Of a stretch of DNA of 64,000 nt, positions 9,061-16,230 are shown piece after piece (within the stretch, counting starts at the first letter, position 1; each line of letters begins with the position of its first letter). The notes below the pieces were generated by a model. It searched no databases, had not been told where the DNA came from, and worked only from the letters and a program-made list of their open reading frames with translations. The translations under genes and the position numbers were made by a program. Source of the stretch: Acetobacter estunensis (GTDB taxonomy: Bacteria > Pseudomonadota > Alphaproteobacteria > Acetobacterales > Acetobacteraceae); contig NZ_WOTH01000004.1 in the NCBI RefSeq assembly GCF_011516945.1, positions 62,001 to 126,000 of the forward strand, in the 5' to 3' direction.

Positions 9061-9300
9061 GGTGTGACTCCTCTCGTGCGTGGATGGCGGCATCGTCTTC
9101 GTGGCGTGATGCCGGAGTGCATTTCCTGAGTGTAGGAGAATGATCCGCGTGAAAGAAGAGCGAGACGGTGGAAGAGCGATGCAGGGTTGGTGGTTGTGCG
9201 CGGCTGTGGCAATGTGCGCGCCGAACTCTGAGCACGGCCGTCCTTTGCGGAATGCCCCGGTCTGTGTTTGCGGGTTTGAACTTGGGGCAAATGGGGCGTG

Positions 9301-10032
9301 ATGAACGAAGTCTTGCAGAGGGTCCGCAGCGAGTCGGCGGAAGACGTGTCTCGTCAGGGAGAGGCGCACGGGCCGAAGGTTGCTCTGGACGCCGATGCCG
9401 TAAAGGCCGCGTACCGACGCTGGGCCGGTGTGTATGACACCGTCTTTGGCGGTATTTCCGCATTCGGGCGCAAGCGCGCCGTGGCAGCCGTCAATCGCCT
9501 GCCGGGCAGTCGTGTTCTGGAAGTGGGCGTGGGAACGGGGCTTGCGCTGCCGCATTACACTGCGGCCAAGCGGGTCACGGGAATCGATCTTTCGGGCGAT
9601 ATGCTGGCGCGCGCGCGTGAGCGCGTGCGTCGCGATCATCTGACGAATGTCGATGCGTTGCTGGAAATGGACGCTGAGGACACGCGCTTTGCGGATAATT
9701 CATTCGACATCGCGGTGGCCATGTTCGTGGCGTCTGTCGTGCCGCATCCGCGCCGCCTGCTGACCGAACTCAAGCGCGTTGTGAAACCCGACGGTTATAT
9801 CCTGTTCGTCAATCATTTCCTGACGCCCCATGGTGTGCGCGGAGCGATTGAGCGTGGCATGGCGCGGGCGTCCCATTCTCTGGGATGGCACCCCGACTTT
9901 GCGATGGAAGCGCTTCTGCCTCCGGAAGATATCGCGCGGGCGCGTATCGAGCCTGTGCCCCCTGCCGGATTGTTCACCCTCGTCACGCTTCGGCAGGAAG
10001 ACCTTTCTGCTGCGCAGGAAAAAGTCGCCTGA
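9301..10032 (+). CDS. Class I SAM-dependent methyltransferase, PmtA-like phosphatidylethanolamine N-methyltransferase
   Basis: 243 aa. The N-terminal AYRRWAGVYDTVFGG and the SAM-binding motif I VLEVGVGTGLALPHY (residues 72-86) match the Rhodobacter/Acetobacter PmtA type, which methylates phosphatidylethanolamine to phosphatidylcholine at the membrane surface. Motif II GIDLSGDMLARARERV and the later DGYILFVNHF are also present. A GTG immediately precedes the chosen ATG. The ribosome site is weak. The name rests on overall resemblance; another small-molecule methyltransferase role is possible. Confidence 0.8.
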   Translation: MNEVLQRVRSESAEDVSRQGEAHGPKVALDADAVKAAYRRWAGVYDTVFGGISAFGRKRAVAAVNRLPGSRVLEVGVGTGLALPHYTAAKRVTGIDLSGDMLARARERVRRDHLTNVDALLEMDAEDTRFADNSFDIAVAMFVASVVPHPRRLLTELKRVVKPDGYILFVNHFLTPHGVRGAIERGMARASHSLGWHPDFAMEALLPPEDIARARIEPVPPAGLFTLVTLRQEDLSAAQEKVA

Positions 10033-10206: not shown

Positions 10207-11478
10207 ATGCGCGTGACCATGGCTGTTTCGACGTCCTCCGCCGAGCGAACCTTCAGCCGTAACGGGGGTGTTCCTTCGCCCGTTGTGGCCGGGTATCTGC
10301 TGCTTGCTGCGGGGGTGAGCGGGCTGGCGGGTCTGTCGATGCTGTTGCAGCAGATCGGTCTTCTGCCCGATGATCTGGCGCAAGCGATTGCCCGGTTTCA
10401 CCCTGCGGCCATGTTGCTGCTTGTCGGTGTGCCCGCTTTTCTCGGTGGTTTTGGGCGCCTGTTCCTGAGGCAGGATCTGATAGGGGCCTCATCCAGCGCG
10501 AATCGTCTCGTAAAACCGTTCGATGTCGTCGCATTAGGGTTGATCGCTCTTTCCTTACCCATTTTTCTTGCGGCGTCCGGGACTGTCGCGCCGCTCGGTG
10601 TGGTGGTCTGGTGTGCAGGTGCAGCACTTCTCGCGGCGACCACGCTGGGCGTTGTTCTGGATTCGCATGCGGGCCCGGGCGTGGTGGCGCCTCGTGGTGA
10701 CGATCATCCCGTCGTTCTGGCGCCCTTTTCCATTTTTGTCTGGACGCAGCTTCTGGCCGCCTGCGGCCTGCTCTTCGTCGCACCGGTTCTGGCGGCGTCC
10801 GCCACGCGAGCACTCATCAACGGGGGGCAGGCCATCGTTTCGTTTGCACCGCCGTTGACGCTGATCGTGCTGGTGGCGGCCTTCGGTATGGCCGCACGTC
10901 TGTTCGAGGCACTTGCACCGACGACGGATCGTGCGCGCCATCTGGCGGTGGCGGTCTCCGCCATTGCTGGCTTGGGTGGTCCTGTGCTGTGGGCGCAAGC
11001 AAATCTTGCCCATGTCTCGCAGGCGGTCACTGTCACGGAGAGCAATGTTCTGGCCGCGATGGCCTCGATTGTGTTCACCTTTATCTGGGTGTCGGCTTTG
11101 TGGCGTCGGAAGGTGGCGCTGGGAGCGCAGTCCGGTGTGCCCGTGCTCTGGGCTTCCGGCTTTTTCGTGCTGCTTGCGGCAGGCTGGGCAGGGCAGGGCG
11201 TGCATATGGCCGTTCTGAACGGTGCGGCTTTCGTTCTGTTCGGCGCGCTGTATGGCTGGATCGATGCGCGGACTGAAGGCCGTTATCCGGCCCGTCTGGC
11301 GCAGATTCAGTTCGCTCTCATGTTCTTTGGCGTGGTGTTGGCGGGCGGTAATGACGTCATGAAAACGCTTGGTGGCGGTCTGATGGTGGCTTCGCTCATC
11401 ATGTTGGCCGCCGTTCTTCTGGGAACGATGCGCAACGCTGTGTCGGCCCGGGTGACTTCCCAGGAGATCGGCCGGTGA
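10207..11478 (+). CDS. Degenerate haem-copper oxidase subunit I-like membrane protein (catalytic ligands largely lost)
   Basis: 423-aa protein with about 10-12 hydrophobic helices. Several stretches track cytochrome oxidase subunit I in order: FHPAAMLLLVGVPAFLGGFG resembles the helix II region 'H..IMxFFxVMPxxIGGFGN'; FSIFVWTQLLAACGLLFVAP resembles '[22 protein letters not shown]'; FTFIWVSALW and PVLWASGFFVLL resemble helices VIII-IX. The HPEVY motif of helix VI, the paired Cu-B histidines and the HDTYYVVAHFHY helix X motif are missing or reduced to single His residues. It overlaps ctaB by 4 bp (GTGA). I infer that it cannot be an oxygen-reducing subunit. It may be a relic or a repurposed membrane scaffold. 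Confidence 0.65.
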   Translation: MRVTMAVSTSSAERTFSRNGGVPSPVVAGYLLLAAGVSGLAGLSMLLQQIGLLPDDLAQAIARFHPAAMLLLVGVPAFLGGFGRLFLRQDLIGASSSANRLVKPFDVVALGLIALSLPIFLAASGTVAPLGVVVWCAGAALLAATTLGVVLDSHAGPGVVAPRGDDHPVVLAPFSIFVWTQLLAACGLLFVAPVLAASATRALINGGQAIVSFAPPLTLIVLVAAFGMAARLFEALAPTTDRARHLAVAVSAIAGLGGPVLWAQANLAHVSQAVTVTESNVLAAMASIVFTFIWVSALWRRKVALGAQSGVPVLWASGFFVLLAAGWAGQGVHMAVLNGAAFVLFGALYGWIDARTEGRYPARLAQIQFALMFFGVVLAGGNDVMKTLGGGLMVASLIMLAAVLLGTMRNAVSARVTSQEIGR

Positions 11479-12431
11479 GCGGCGCTGTTGCAGAGGGGCG
11501 TCCCGCACGGCCTCGTTTCGAGACGGCGCGCGTCGGCACAAAGGCGCATGACTGGGTGCAGCTTCTCAAGCCCCGTGTGATTTCGCTGGTGGTGTTCACA
11601 GGGGCGGCGGGTCTGTTCATGGCGCCGGGTCACATGAATCCGGTGATTGCGGCTGTCAGCATCCTGTGCATCTGTCTGGCATCAGGTGCGGCTGGTGCCA
11701 TCAATATGTGGTACGACCGCGACATCGACATCGTCATGCAGCGCACCGCCACGCGCCCCATTCCGGGCGGACGTATTCCCGCGGATGGAACGCTGGCCTA
11801 TGGGCTGGGTCTGTCGGTGTTCTCTGTGGCGCTGATGTGGCTGGCGACGAACGCTCTGGCGGCCGGTATTCTGGCGTTCTCGATCTTTTTCTATGCCGTG
11901 ATCTACACGATGTGGCTCAAGCGCTCGACGCCGCAGAACATCGTGATCGGCGGTGCGGCCGGGGCATTCCCGCCCATGATCGGTTGGGCGGCAGCGACCG
12001 GCTCCATGAGCGTGATGCCCATCGTCATGTTCGCCATTGTCTTTCTGTGGACGCCCCCCCATTTCTGGTCGCTCTCGCTGTATGCCTGCAAGGATTATGG
12101 GCGCGCCGGTATTCCGATGTTGCCGGTGGTCAAGGGAGCGCGTCATACACGCTGGCAGATCCTGATTTACACGGTGCTGCTTCTGGCTGTGTCGCTCGTA
12201 CCGTCTTTTCTGCGTCTGAGCGGACCTCTTTATACAGTGACGGCGCTGGCGCTCGGGCTTGGCTTCATTGCCTGCGCCGTGCGCGTACTGCGTGAAAAGC
12301 AGGATGCGGGCGGTGTCAGTCTGAACGGGGACAAGGCGGCGCGCGTGTCGTTCCGCTTTTCGCTGGCCTATCTGTTCCTGCTGTTTTGCGGCCTGCTCGC
12401 CGATCACGCCCTGATGGGATGGCTTTCATGA
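11475..12431 (+). CDS. ctaB: Protoheme IX farnesyltransferase (haem O synthase)
   Basis: 318 aa, GTG start overlapping the upstream stop. This membrane UbiA-superfamily prenyltransferase attaches a farnesyl group to haem b to give haem O, the cofactor of bo3-type quinol oxidases. The prenyl-diphosphate/Mg site NMWYDRDIDIVMQRTATRP is visible around residues 75-94, and a second acidic region lies near YACKDYGRAGIPMLPVV. About eight helices follow. It sits between the oxidase-like gene and a CoxF-like gene, a remnant of a cytochrome oxidase biogenesis cluster. A bo3 oxidase elsewhere in the genome is its probable customer. Confidence 0.95.
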   Translation: MSGAVAEGRPARPRFETARVGTKAHDWVQLLKPRVISLVVFTGAAGLFMAPGHMNPVIAAVSILCICLASGAAGAINMWYDRDIDIVMQRTATRPIPGGRIPADGTLAYGLGLSVFSVALMWLATNALAAGILAFSIFFYAVIYTMWLKRSTPQNIVIGGAAGAFPPMIGWAAATGSMSVMPIVMFAIVFLWTPPHFWSLSLYACKDYGRAGIPMLPVVKGARHTRWQILIYTVLLLAVSLVPSFLRLSGPLYTVTALALGLGFIACAVRVLREKQDAGGVSLNGDKAARVSFRFSLAYLFLLFCGLLADHALMGWLS

Positions 12432-12568
12432 CAACGACATCCATGGATCTGACCGCCGCTGAGCAGGCTGAACTGACACGTCGTCAGAAAGGTCGTCTTT
12501 TCGGCCTGATTGGTTTCGTGCTCGCCATGGTTGTGATCGTCTACGTTCTGGCGCTGATCCGTCTCTGA
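12428..12568 (+). CDS. Small CoxF-like membrane protein
   Basis: 46 aa. The ATG overlaps the ctaB stop (ATGA). A polar N-terminus with LTAAEQAELTRRQKGR precedes one membrane helix, LFGLIGFVLAMVVIVYVL. The size, the 'L T x x E ... RR..' head and the place directly after ctaB match the short CoxF proteins found between ctaB and ctaG in alphaproteobacterial oxidase operons. No ctaG follows here; the next gene is convergent. Its function is unknown and it is assigned by position and shape only. Confidence 0.7.
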   Translation: MTTTSMDLTAAEQAELTRRQKGRLFGLIGFVLAMVVIVYVLALIRL

Positions 12569-14458: not shown

Positions 14459-14494
14459 ATAGCGATGCACATCAAGACGACCGGAGACCCGCTT

Positions 14495-14824
14495 ATGCGC
14501 CTCAGCCATCTGTTGCCTTTCTGCCTGATCTTCCTGTCCTGCACGGCGAATGCGCAGACCGTGGTGCAACTCACGCTCAAGGACCATCACTTCACGCCTG
14601 ATCATGTTGAAGTACCGGCGGGCGAGAGGTTTTTCATCGAACTTGAAAATCAGGATGACACGACTGACGAGTTCGAGAGCTACGACATGAAATTTGAGAA
14701 AATCATTGTGTCGGGCGGGAAAATTCGGGTCCACGCAGGTCCTCTTCATCCGGGCACCTACACCTTCTTCGACGACTATCACCCTGATCAGGCGCGCGGC
14801 ACCGTAACGGCGGTGGGGAAATAA
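14495..14824 (+). CDS. Periplasmic cupredoxin-like protein of a ferrous iron uptake system (FtrB type)
   Basis: 109 aa from the ATG at 14495, with GGAG 9 bases upstream. A signal peptide (MRLSHLLPFCLIFLSCTANA) is followed by a small beta-sandwich domain ending in PGTYTFFDDYHPDQARGTV, the mark of the Cys-less cupredoxins that accompany FTR1 permeases. The typical type-1 copper cysteine is absent, as in that subfamily. Family role: oxidation or handling of Fe(II) at the outer face before uptake by the permease. The FTR1 gene follows 3 bp later. Confidence 0.85.
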   Translation: MRLSHLLPFCLIFLSCTANAQTVVQLTLKDHHFTPDHVEVPAGERFFIELENQDDTTDEFESYDMKFEKIIVSGGKIRVHAGPLHPGTYTFFDDYHPDQARGTVTAVGK

Positions 14825-14827
14825 GTC

Positions 14828-15670
14828 ATGCTCGGAAGTCTGATAATCGTTTTTCGTGAAGTGATGGAAGCCGGTCTGATTGTGGGGATCGTGCTGGCAG
14901 CCACGCGCGGCATTCCCGGACGCGGCTGGTGGGTGGCGGGCGGCATCGGCGCGGGCGTGGCGGGAGCGGCTCTGCTGGCCTGTTTTGCCGGTGCGCTCTC
15001 GCAGGCTTTTTCGGGCAACGGACAGGACATTTTCTCGGCGTTCGTTCTGTGTCTCGCGGTGGCCATGCTGTCGTGGCACATCATCTGGATGTCCCGGCAC
15101 GGACGCGAGATGGCACAGAATGCGAAGAGCTTCGGTGCTGAGGTGTCTTCGGGCAGCAAATCCCTCTTCGCCATGGCGACGGTCGTGGCCGTGGCGGTAC
15201 TGCGCGAGGGCATGGAAATCGTGCTGTTTCTCTATGGAATCGCGGTGTCGGCGCATGAGAGTGCGGCCAGCATGATTCTGGGCGGACTACTGGGTGTGGC
15301 CTGTGGTGCGGCCCTCTCATGGGCGTTGTATCGCGGGCTTGTCATTATCCCGCTCAAGCATCTGTTCAGTGTGACGAATACATTGGTGGCGTTGCTGGCG
15401 GCCGGGATGGCCAGTCAGGCCGCCGCCCTTCTTGCCAATGACGACCTGATCCCTGCTCTGGGTTTCGACCTATGGGATTCCTCGTGGCTGCTGTCGGACG
15501 GCAGCATGATCGGACGGGCGGCCAAGGCGCTGTTTGGCTACTCCGATCGCCCGATGGGGATTCAGGTTCTCGTGTGGGTGCTGACGCTGCTTGCCCTTCT
15601 CGTGGCCGAGCGCGTCGTACGTCGCCAGCTTCCCAAAGCCCCGATGCGGCGGCAATCCGTCGCAGGCTGA
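14828..15670 (+). CDS. FTR1-family iron permease (FtrC type)
   Basis: 280 aa, seven predicted helices. Both iron-binding REXXE motifs are intact: REVME at residues 10-14 and REGME at 126-130. Family knowledge: high-affinity iron permease working with a periplasmic oxidase or P19-type protein. It starts 3 bp after the cupredoxin gene and is followed after 38 bp by the P19-type gene. Together they form a FtrB-C-A order. Confidence 0.94.
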   Translation: MLGSLIIVFREVMEAGLIVGIVLAATRGIPGRGWWVAGGIGAGVAGAALLACFAGALSQAFSGNGQDIFSAFVLCLAVAMLSWHIIWMSRHGREMAQNAKSFGAEVSSGSKSLFAMATVVAVAVLREGMEIVLFLYGIAVSAHESAASMILGGLLGVACGAALSWALYRGLVIIPLKHLFSVTNTLVALLAAGMASQAAALLANDDLIPALGFDLWDSSWLLSDGSMIGRAAKALFGYSDRPMGIQVLVWVLTLLALLVAERVVRRQLPKAPMRRQSVAG

Positions 15671-15708
15671 AGCGGTTCTTCTGTCTTCATTTTGAAAAGA
15701 GGTCGGTC

Positions 15709-16230
15709 ATGAAAAAAGCTGTTCCCGTCCTGTCCGCGGCGGGGCTTGCCGCTGCGCTGCTCGCATCTCCAGCACTGGCCCGCGAATATCCAGTGGGCGG
15801 TCCGGTCCAGACCCACGATATGGAGATCGCCTCAAGCTATCTCGTGGGCATCGAGATGGCGCCCATGCCGGCGGACATGCCGATGGGTGACGATGTGATC
15901 CATCTGGAGACGGATGTGCATGCTACAGCCGACAACCAGTGGGGTTTCCCCGAGGGGGCGTGGGTTCCGTACCTCAAGATCGATTACACGCTGACCAAGA
16001 AGGGTTCGTCTTTCAAGGCGGCGGGCACCATGCGTTCCATGACCGCCAAGGACGGCCCGCACTACGCCAACAACGTGAAGATGGATGGCCCCGGCGATTA
16101 CACCGTGGTGCTGACCTACAGTTCTCCCGAGGTGAATGGTTTCCTGCATCATGTTGACAAGGAGACGGGCACGCCGGGATTCTGGCAGCCGTTTACCGAG
16201 ACCTTCACCTTCAAATATCCGCAGAAGTAA
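15709..16230 (+). CDS. P19/Tp34-family periplasmic iron-binding protein (FtrA type)
   Basis: 173 aa from the ATG at 15709, with AGAGG about 7 bases upstream. The open frame continues upstream but overlaps the permease gene. A signal peptide ending in ASPALA is followed by the P19 domain. Metal-site segments are YLVGIEMAPMPADMPMGDD, HLETDVHATADNQWGF and, near the C-terminus, FLHHVDKETG; Met, Glu and His from these bind copper and iron in the family. It acts in the periplasm as a dimer feeding the FTR1 permease. A strong terminator follows. The fourth family partner, the ferredoxin-like FtrD, is not found here. Confidence 0.93.
   Translation: MKKAVPVLSAAGLAAALLASPALAREYPVGGPVQTHDMEIASSYLVGIEMAPMPADMPMGDDVIHLETDVHATADNQWGFPEGAWVPYLKIDYTLTKKGSSFKAAGTMRSMTAKDGPHYANNVKMDGPGDYTVVLTYSSPEVNGFLHHVDKETGTPGFWQPFTETFTFKYPQK

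Follow-up and report, generated by a model that had tools for sequence, protein, structure and literature searches.

Organization of the Locus

The window, which is the whole stretch of 64,000 nucleotides analysed from Acetobacter estunensis, was found to contain a gene resembling subunit I of cytochrome oxidase (COX1), here called the deranged ctaD. The gene lies between a pmtA-like methyltransferase gene and ctaB, and a short ORF comes after ctaB (Table 1). The original prediction had described an intact frame of 423 codons coupled to ctaB, and ctaB in turn coupled to a "CoxF-like" gene. The intact frame was found as described, and at both junctions the genes overlap by four nucleotides. The label "CoxF-like" agreed with the position and size of the 46-aa ORF but found no profile support, as a search of NCBIfam gave no match at E<=1 and Pfam gave sub-threshold matches only. 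A small ORF resembling it was present after ctaB in some relatives and also in one of 30 loci with an intact ctaD (L078, 42% over 38 aa).

Table 1. Features of the deranged ctaD locus, in positions of the window.
Feature	Position	Strand	Evidence
pmtA-like methyltransferase gene (conserved upstream; marker of synteny)	9298..10032	+	PmtA model 148.9 bits, below cut-off 390
Deranged ctaD (COX1-like), 423 aa	10207..11478	+	ORF; Pfam COX1 above cut-off; family profile to 1ar1_A E 3.1e-72
Codon of H65, counterpart of H94 (low-spin haem a ligand) in Paracoccus COX1	10399..10401	+	His in 85/85; HMM alignment to 1ar1_A residue 94
PPLTLI (residues 215-220), counterpart of HPEVYI; Cu-B H276 and Y280 lost	10849..10866	+	H276 0/85, Y280 0/85
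WAQA (residues 262-265), counterpart of WAHH; Cu-B H325/H326 lost in window protein	10990..11001	+	Family: H325 30/85, H326 2/85
Codon of H333, counterpart of H413 (low-spin haem a ligand)	11203..11205	+	His in 85/85; HMM alignment to 1ar1_A residue 413
GTGA stop/start overlap of deranged ctaD and ctaB	11475..11478	+	4 nt: GTG at 11475, stop 11476-11478
ctaB, haem O synthase, 318 aa	11475..12431	+	TIGR01473 321 bits, cut-off 210
46-aa ORF, one hydrophobic stretch, coxF-like position	12428..12568	+	4-nt overlap (ATGA) with ctaB stop, ATG at 12428

A ctaB start was counted as overlapping when one was available that shared 4 bases or 1 base with the stop codon of the preceding gene. Such a start was found in 75 of the 85 deranged loci as against 5 of 29 intact loci. 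Since the overlap was commoner in the deranged than in the intact loci, tight coupling to ctaB appears, from these sequences, to be typical of the deranged lineage.

Relation to ctaD

The likeness of the 423-aa protein to subunit I, which had been read from its helix order and framework motifs, proved to be real, both by Pfam COX1 and by the fit of the family profile to the COX1 structure of Paracoccus (1ar1_A). In hmmscan, the window protein matched Pfam COX1 with 36.3 bits (cut-off 34.8, E 3.9e-9), so that the COX1-profile search proposed as a check gave a match above the cut-off, near the limit of detection. The Pfam COX1 search of the own genome listed two other oxidase genes and not the deranged ctaD. 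The NCBIfam equivalog CtaD_CoxA gave 20.2 bits and its cut-off of 670.75 bits was not reached. Among 44 deranged orthologues, 42 matched Pfam COX1 at E<=1e-3, and the profile built from the 44 matched 1ar1_A with 247 bits (E 3.1e-72). The same profile fitted the chains of bo3 subunit I less well, the best listed being 9ufb_A (123.6 bits), with 98.6 bits for 1fft_A. When the window protein was searched as a single sequence against solved structures, the matches were weak (best E 0.0096), and its identity to the 57 other proteins of one alignment was 22-50% in all cases but one.

A survey of Acetobacteraceae for conservation of the gene next to ctaB, also proposed earlier, showed the order pmtA-like methyltransferase, deranged ctaD and ctaB in 58 of 58 deranged loci, and both neighbours were present at 27 further deranged copies. 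In 30 loci with an intact CtaD from other Acetobacteraceae, a ctaB match was present in the fetched flank in 29, and the same methyltransferase was reached within the 1.5 kb flank in 13. In a FastTree tree (391 columns), all 85 deranged copies formed one clade with a support of 1.0 on a long branch, where long-branch attraction is possible. Because of the synteny shared with intact ctaD loci, the single clade and the best fit of the profile to aa3-type COX1, the window gene appears to be the ctaD that the lineage had from the start, which has degenerated where it stood.

No intact CtaD was found in the own genome, in which the remaining COX1-family matches were to a CyoB and to a CcoN-like protein of divergent sequence. 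The CcoN-like oxidase subunit is encoded outside the window (L032:1420-2850, minus strand, G000:C22) and gave 153 bits with TIGR00780 (cut-off 583). Next to it is a long ORF, presumably CcoO-like, in which the haem c motif CxxCH occurs several times.

Lost and Kept Ligands

The ligand alignment contained 85 deranged copies and 29 intact CtaD proteins; two of the copies (L040 and L041) were identical though from different genomes, so that 84 distinct proteins were compared. Residues were mapped by sequence methods, with MAFFT alignments and with the HMMER profile of the 44 orthologues aligned to solved COX1. The entries ctaD_L032 (wrong ORF) and ctaD_L072 (881-aa ORF, locus without a ctaB match) were dropped from the alignments. 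Also outside the deranged set were L149 (G029, frame-broken), L130 (G061, gene absent), L131 (G137, longer CtaD-type ORF) and L151 (G091, ctaB at the contig edge). For the numbered COX1 residues we assume the usual roles as Cu-B, haem a3, cross-linked tyrosine, propionate and K-channel positions.

The original prediction that HPEVY and the Cu-B histidine pair are missing was confirmed in the alignment, where the haem a3 histidine was absent from the window protein as well. The window protein contained none of the Cu-B ligands, and in the family H276 was kept in 0/85 copies, H325 in 30/85 and H326 in 2/85. The haem a3 ligand H411, the cross-linked Y280 and the K-channel lysine were each found in 0/85, whereas E278 was kept in 27/85. 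The propionate arginines R473/R474 were arginine in 0/85 copies (about 83 being gaps) and R54 in 8/85.

The columns of H94 and H413, which correspond to H65 and H333 of the window protein, contained histidine in all 85 copies. In the independent HMMER profile alignment, H65 and H333 again fell on residues 94 and 413 of 1ar1_A, as counted from the printed coordinates; these two residues we take to be the ligands of the low-spin haem a. A total of 167 columns were fixed in the 29 intact CtaD proteins and aligned in the deranged set, and only four of them were fixed in all 85 deranged copies, namely H65, W179, W262 and H333. For two columns chosen in advance, the probability that both belong to these four is 0.0004; this value is approximate, since columns of His and Trp are slow to change in any case. 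Of 14 histidine columns fixed in the intact CtaD, only H94 and H413 were still fixed in the deranged set.

The protein had been described as stripped of its haem and copper ligands. By alignment, the binuclear centre is gone and the axial pair of the low-spin haem appears to be kept, so that this description was only half right, the part on haem ligands being contradicted by H65 and H333. Likewise, the term "dead" oxidase core holds for the residues of the O2-reducing site but not for the two low-spin haem ligands, which are among very few invariant positions. Compared with CtaD/COX1, subunit I of the aa3 cytochrome c oxidase (an A-family haem-copper oxidase), the deranged protein is homologous over nearly its full length, holds the same operon place ahead of ctaB and keeps both low-spin axial histidines. 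It differs from CtaD/COX1 in the loss of the Cu-B and haem a3 ligands (apart from H325 in the copies counted above), the cross-linked tyrosine, the K-channel lysine and the propionate arginines, and in a genome without a CtaG match.

A tryptophan, W135 of the window protein (10609-10611), was gained in 80/85 deranged copies where alanine was present in 29/29 intact CtaD. As a guess, it may fill the former space of a proton channel.

Selection on the Reading Frame

The substitution pattern was examined by the method of Nei and Gojobori. Between the window gene and its counterpart at locus L033 of Acetobacter estunensis, dN/dS was 0.118 (bootstrap about 0.06-0.20), and in the same comparison it was 0.017 for ctaB and 0 for the methyltransferase. 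In eight other close pairs (dS<0.3), dN/dS of the deranged gene ranged from 0.064 to 0.152. The distant pairs gave about 0.3-0.9, with dS near saturation there. The value of 0.12 to Acetobacter estunensis therefore indicates that the gene is maintained by selection, in agreement with the earlier claim of a maintained open frame. Purifying selection on the deranged protein is clear and is looser than on its neighbours.

All 85 deranged copies were open frames, with lengths of 365-520 aa. In five of them (L034, L037, L038, L045 and L056) the search match contained an internal stop, which falls beyond the limits of the stop-free frames analysed. The only copy seen with a frame broken over several reading frames was L149 (G029:C146:18900-24000). 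The G029 genome is 86% complete, so that an assembly error is possible. L149 was left out of the counts.

Distribution and Company of CtaB, CyoB and CtaA

A single-sequence search of 61 near relatives found the deranged gene in 35, namely the own genome and 34 of the 36 other genomes of the same genus; it was found in none of the 24 genomes from other families. Over the whole family, the same kind of search found it in 46 of 299 genomes and 14 of 102 genera. A profile search of 120 genomes added at least eight more carrier genomes among the matches listed. Among those 120 genomes, 23 carriers were recognised. CtaB was over its cut-off in 23/23 of these, and CyoB was present in 23/23, always scoring above 1016 bits (the cut-off of 1020 was narrowly missed in two), whereas CtaA, the haem A synthase, was present in 10/23. 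Haem O, and not haem A, is therefore the common factor.

Nine non-carriers were searched for CyoB and CtaB. Seven of them (G011, G015, G089, G094, G126, G130 and G176) had neither a CyoB match nor a CtaB over the cut-off. In the eighth (G091) ctaB was at the contig edge and CyoB was absent. The ninth (G061) contained CtaB and two CyoB-model matches, one of them over the cut-off, and the deranged ctaD was absent. No profile match to the deranged gene was found in G062, G110 and G136 either; G110 had CtaB over the cut-off, in a genome 82% complete and 7% contaminated. One of the seven, G094, contained a haem A synthase (320 bits) but neither CtaB over the cut-off nor a CyoB match, and its genome is only 82% complete.

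In G061, whose genome is rated 100% complete, the deranged ctaD had been cleanly deleted (L130, G061:C7:146000-153000): the pmtA-like gene was followed by ctaB, with the ctaB match starting about 60 bases past the methyltransferase stop. The deranged ctaD is therefore not an absolute requirement.

The own genome was also searched with profiles for CtaG (Cu-B insertion) and SURF1, and no match to either was found.

Possible Role of the Deranged Protein

The gene is not new to the literature. The earlier report cited as reference 13 in PMC10715153 is presumably Matsutani et al. 2014 (PMID 24862920). From PMC10715153, the gene, the loss of its oxidase function and the idea that it assists assembly by stabilising CtaB are already known: a deranged COX1-like protein of Acetobacter spp., kept with CtaB and not an oxidase, is described there. 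The window gene is the same gene, being COX1-like, clustered with ctaB and not an oxidase. The assembly role tied to haem O and bo3 supply in the original prediction fits the co-occurrence of CtaB and CyoB, but the idea had been put forward before (PMC10715153). In the same paper the protein is said to lack all conserved cofactor-binding residues, whereas in our study both low-spin haem ligands were present in 85/85 copies, which corrects the statement that all cofactor ligands were lost. Our literature search, which reached few subscription papers, found no report of the two kept low-spin ligands and recognised no described one-haem COX1 relic.

The reading we favour, to which we give nearly even chances, is that the protein is a one-haem derivative of CtaD, made alongside CtaB, which either activates CtaB or receives haem O and passes it on. 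The aa3 oxidase would have been given up in the lineage, and ctaD would have degenerated in place and been reused. The haem a3 and Cu-B ligands of the O2-reducing half, the cross-linked tyrosine and the K-channel lysine are lost, and the COX1-like sequence and the low-spin bis-His pair are kept. One haem, O or B, may be bound between H65 and H333, as the alignment suggests. CtaB may need a subunit-I-like partner, a partnership suggested by the neighbouring position of the two genes; the task of this partner would be to activate CtaB, or to accept haem O and hand it over to the bo3/ba3 quinol oxidase. A lineage without an aa3 oxidase that still needs haem O for its quinol oxidase might keep a stub of subunit I for CtaB. 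More tentatively, the protein could be an oxidase subunit I turned into a one-haem membrane chaperone, whose low-spin bis-His pocket docks haem O from the coupled CtaB before it is handed to the separate quinol oxidase.

The favoured reading of a one-haem partner of CtaB is supported by the invariant H94/H413 pair, the dN/dS in close pairs, the ctaB overlap, the presence of CtaB and CyoB in all 23 sampled carriers, the pmtA-ctaD-ctaB synteny, the seven of nine searched non-carriers without a CyoB match and a CtaB over the cut-off, and the absence of SURF1 and CtaG matches from the own genome. Counting against it are the lost propionate arginines (R473/R474 and R54), the deletion in G061 despite its CtaB and CyoB-model matches, the broken copy of G029 and the dN/dS of the distant pairs, although dS is close to saturated in these. 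Also against it, E. coli makes haem O with no such partner known.

The loss of the propionate arginines would suit a structural scaffold without haem, serving to stabilise CtaB, as would the ctaB pairing, constant in the loci examined, and the suggestion to this effect in PMC10715153. Such a scaffold leaves unexplained why the two axial histidines are the sole invariant ones when almost every other position fixed in CtaD has drifted, and we consider it rather unlikely. In oxidases, electrons are transferred through the low-spin site with its two axial histidines, which would favour a one-haem electron carrier or a redox or gas sensor in the quinol chain. The position of the gene would then be inherited from the ctaD-ctaB operon, with ctaB as a neighbour by ancestry alone. 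However, the binuclear centre, the natural electron acceptor, is gone, the ctaB overlap is commoner in the deranged lineage, and of the nine searched non-carriers, seven have neither CtaB nor CyoB over the cut-off; this role seems unlikely to us.

The overlap with ctaB is compatible with co-production of both proteins and also with a leader cistron, whose frame would be kept solely through the coupled translation of ctaB and for which an overlapping -4/-1 start is available in 75 of the 85 loci. A mere leader would hardly account for the dN/dS of close pairs (about 0.06-0.15), for lengths of 365-520 aa in all copies or for the invariant histidine pair, and ten loci are without such an overlap, which makes this explanation improbable. 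Slow decay of a pseudogene might be read from the low identity among the aligned proteins, from the frame-broken copy in the incomplete G029 genome and from the deletion in G061. The 85 open frames, the close pairs with their dN/dS well under 1 and the comparison of CtaD-fixed columns, with H65 and H333 invariant, leave it very little credit.

The role proposed for the one-haem partner is similar to that of SURF1, a haem a chaperone candidate, in the handling of haem between the haem O/A synthases and subunit I. SURF1 belongs to a protein family different from COX1, and the own genome had no SURF1 match. According to a review (PMC7140478), the multimerisation of yeast Cox10, the homologue of CtaB, seems to need newly made Cox1. 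The proposed haem handling resembles this Cox1-dependent activation of Cox10, which speaks for the favoured reading; in yeast, the partner is a working Cox1. The exit of new haem O from the synthase and its arrival at the oxidase are a poorly understood step, in which much is left to elucidate according to the review (PMC7140478). If the deranged protein does bind one haem and work with CtaB, it would offer a natural, simplified and genetically separable form of the step between subunit I and CtaB in manipulable bacteria, and an example of enzyme reuse in which one of two haem sites is retained.

Other Features of the Window

Three ORFs were found on the plus strand at 14465-16230, including an EfeU/Ftr1-like permease (142.8 bits, below the cut-off of 255). 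The first small ORF we take to be cupredoxin-like and the last to resemble P19/Tp34 iron-binding proteins; a search of NCBIfam at E<=0.001 matched neither of the two. The three ORFs likely encode a ferrous iron uptake system.
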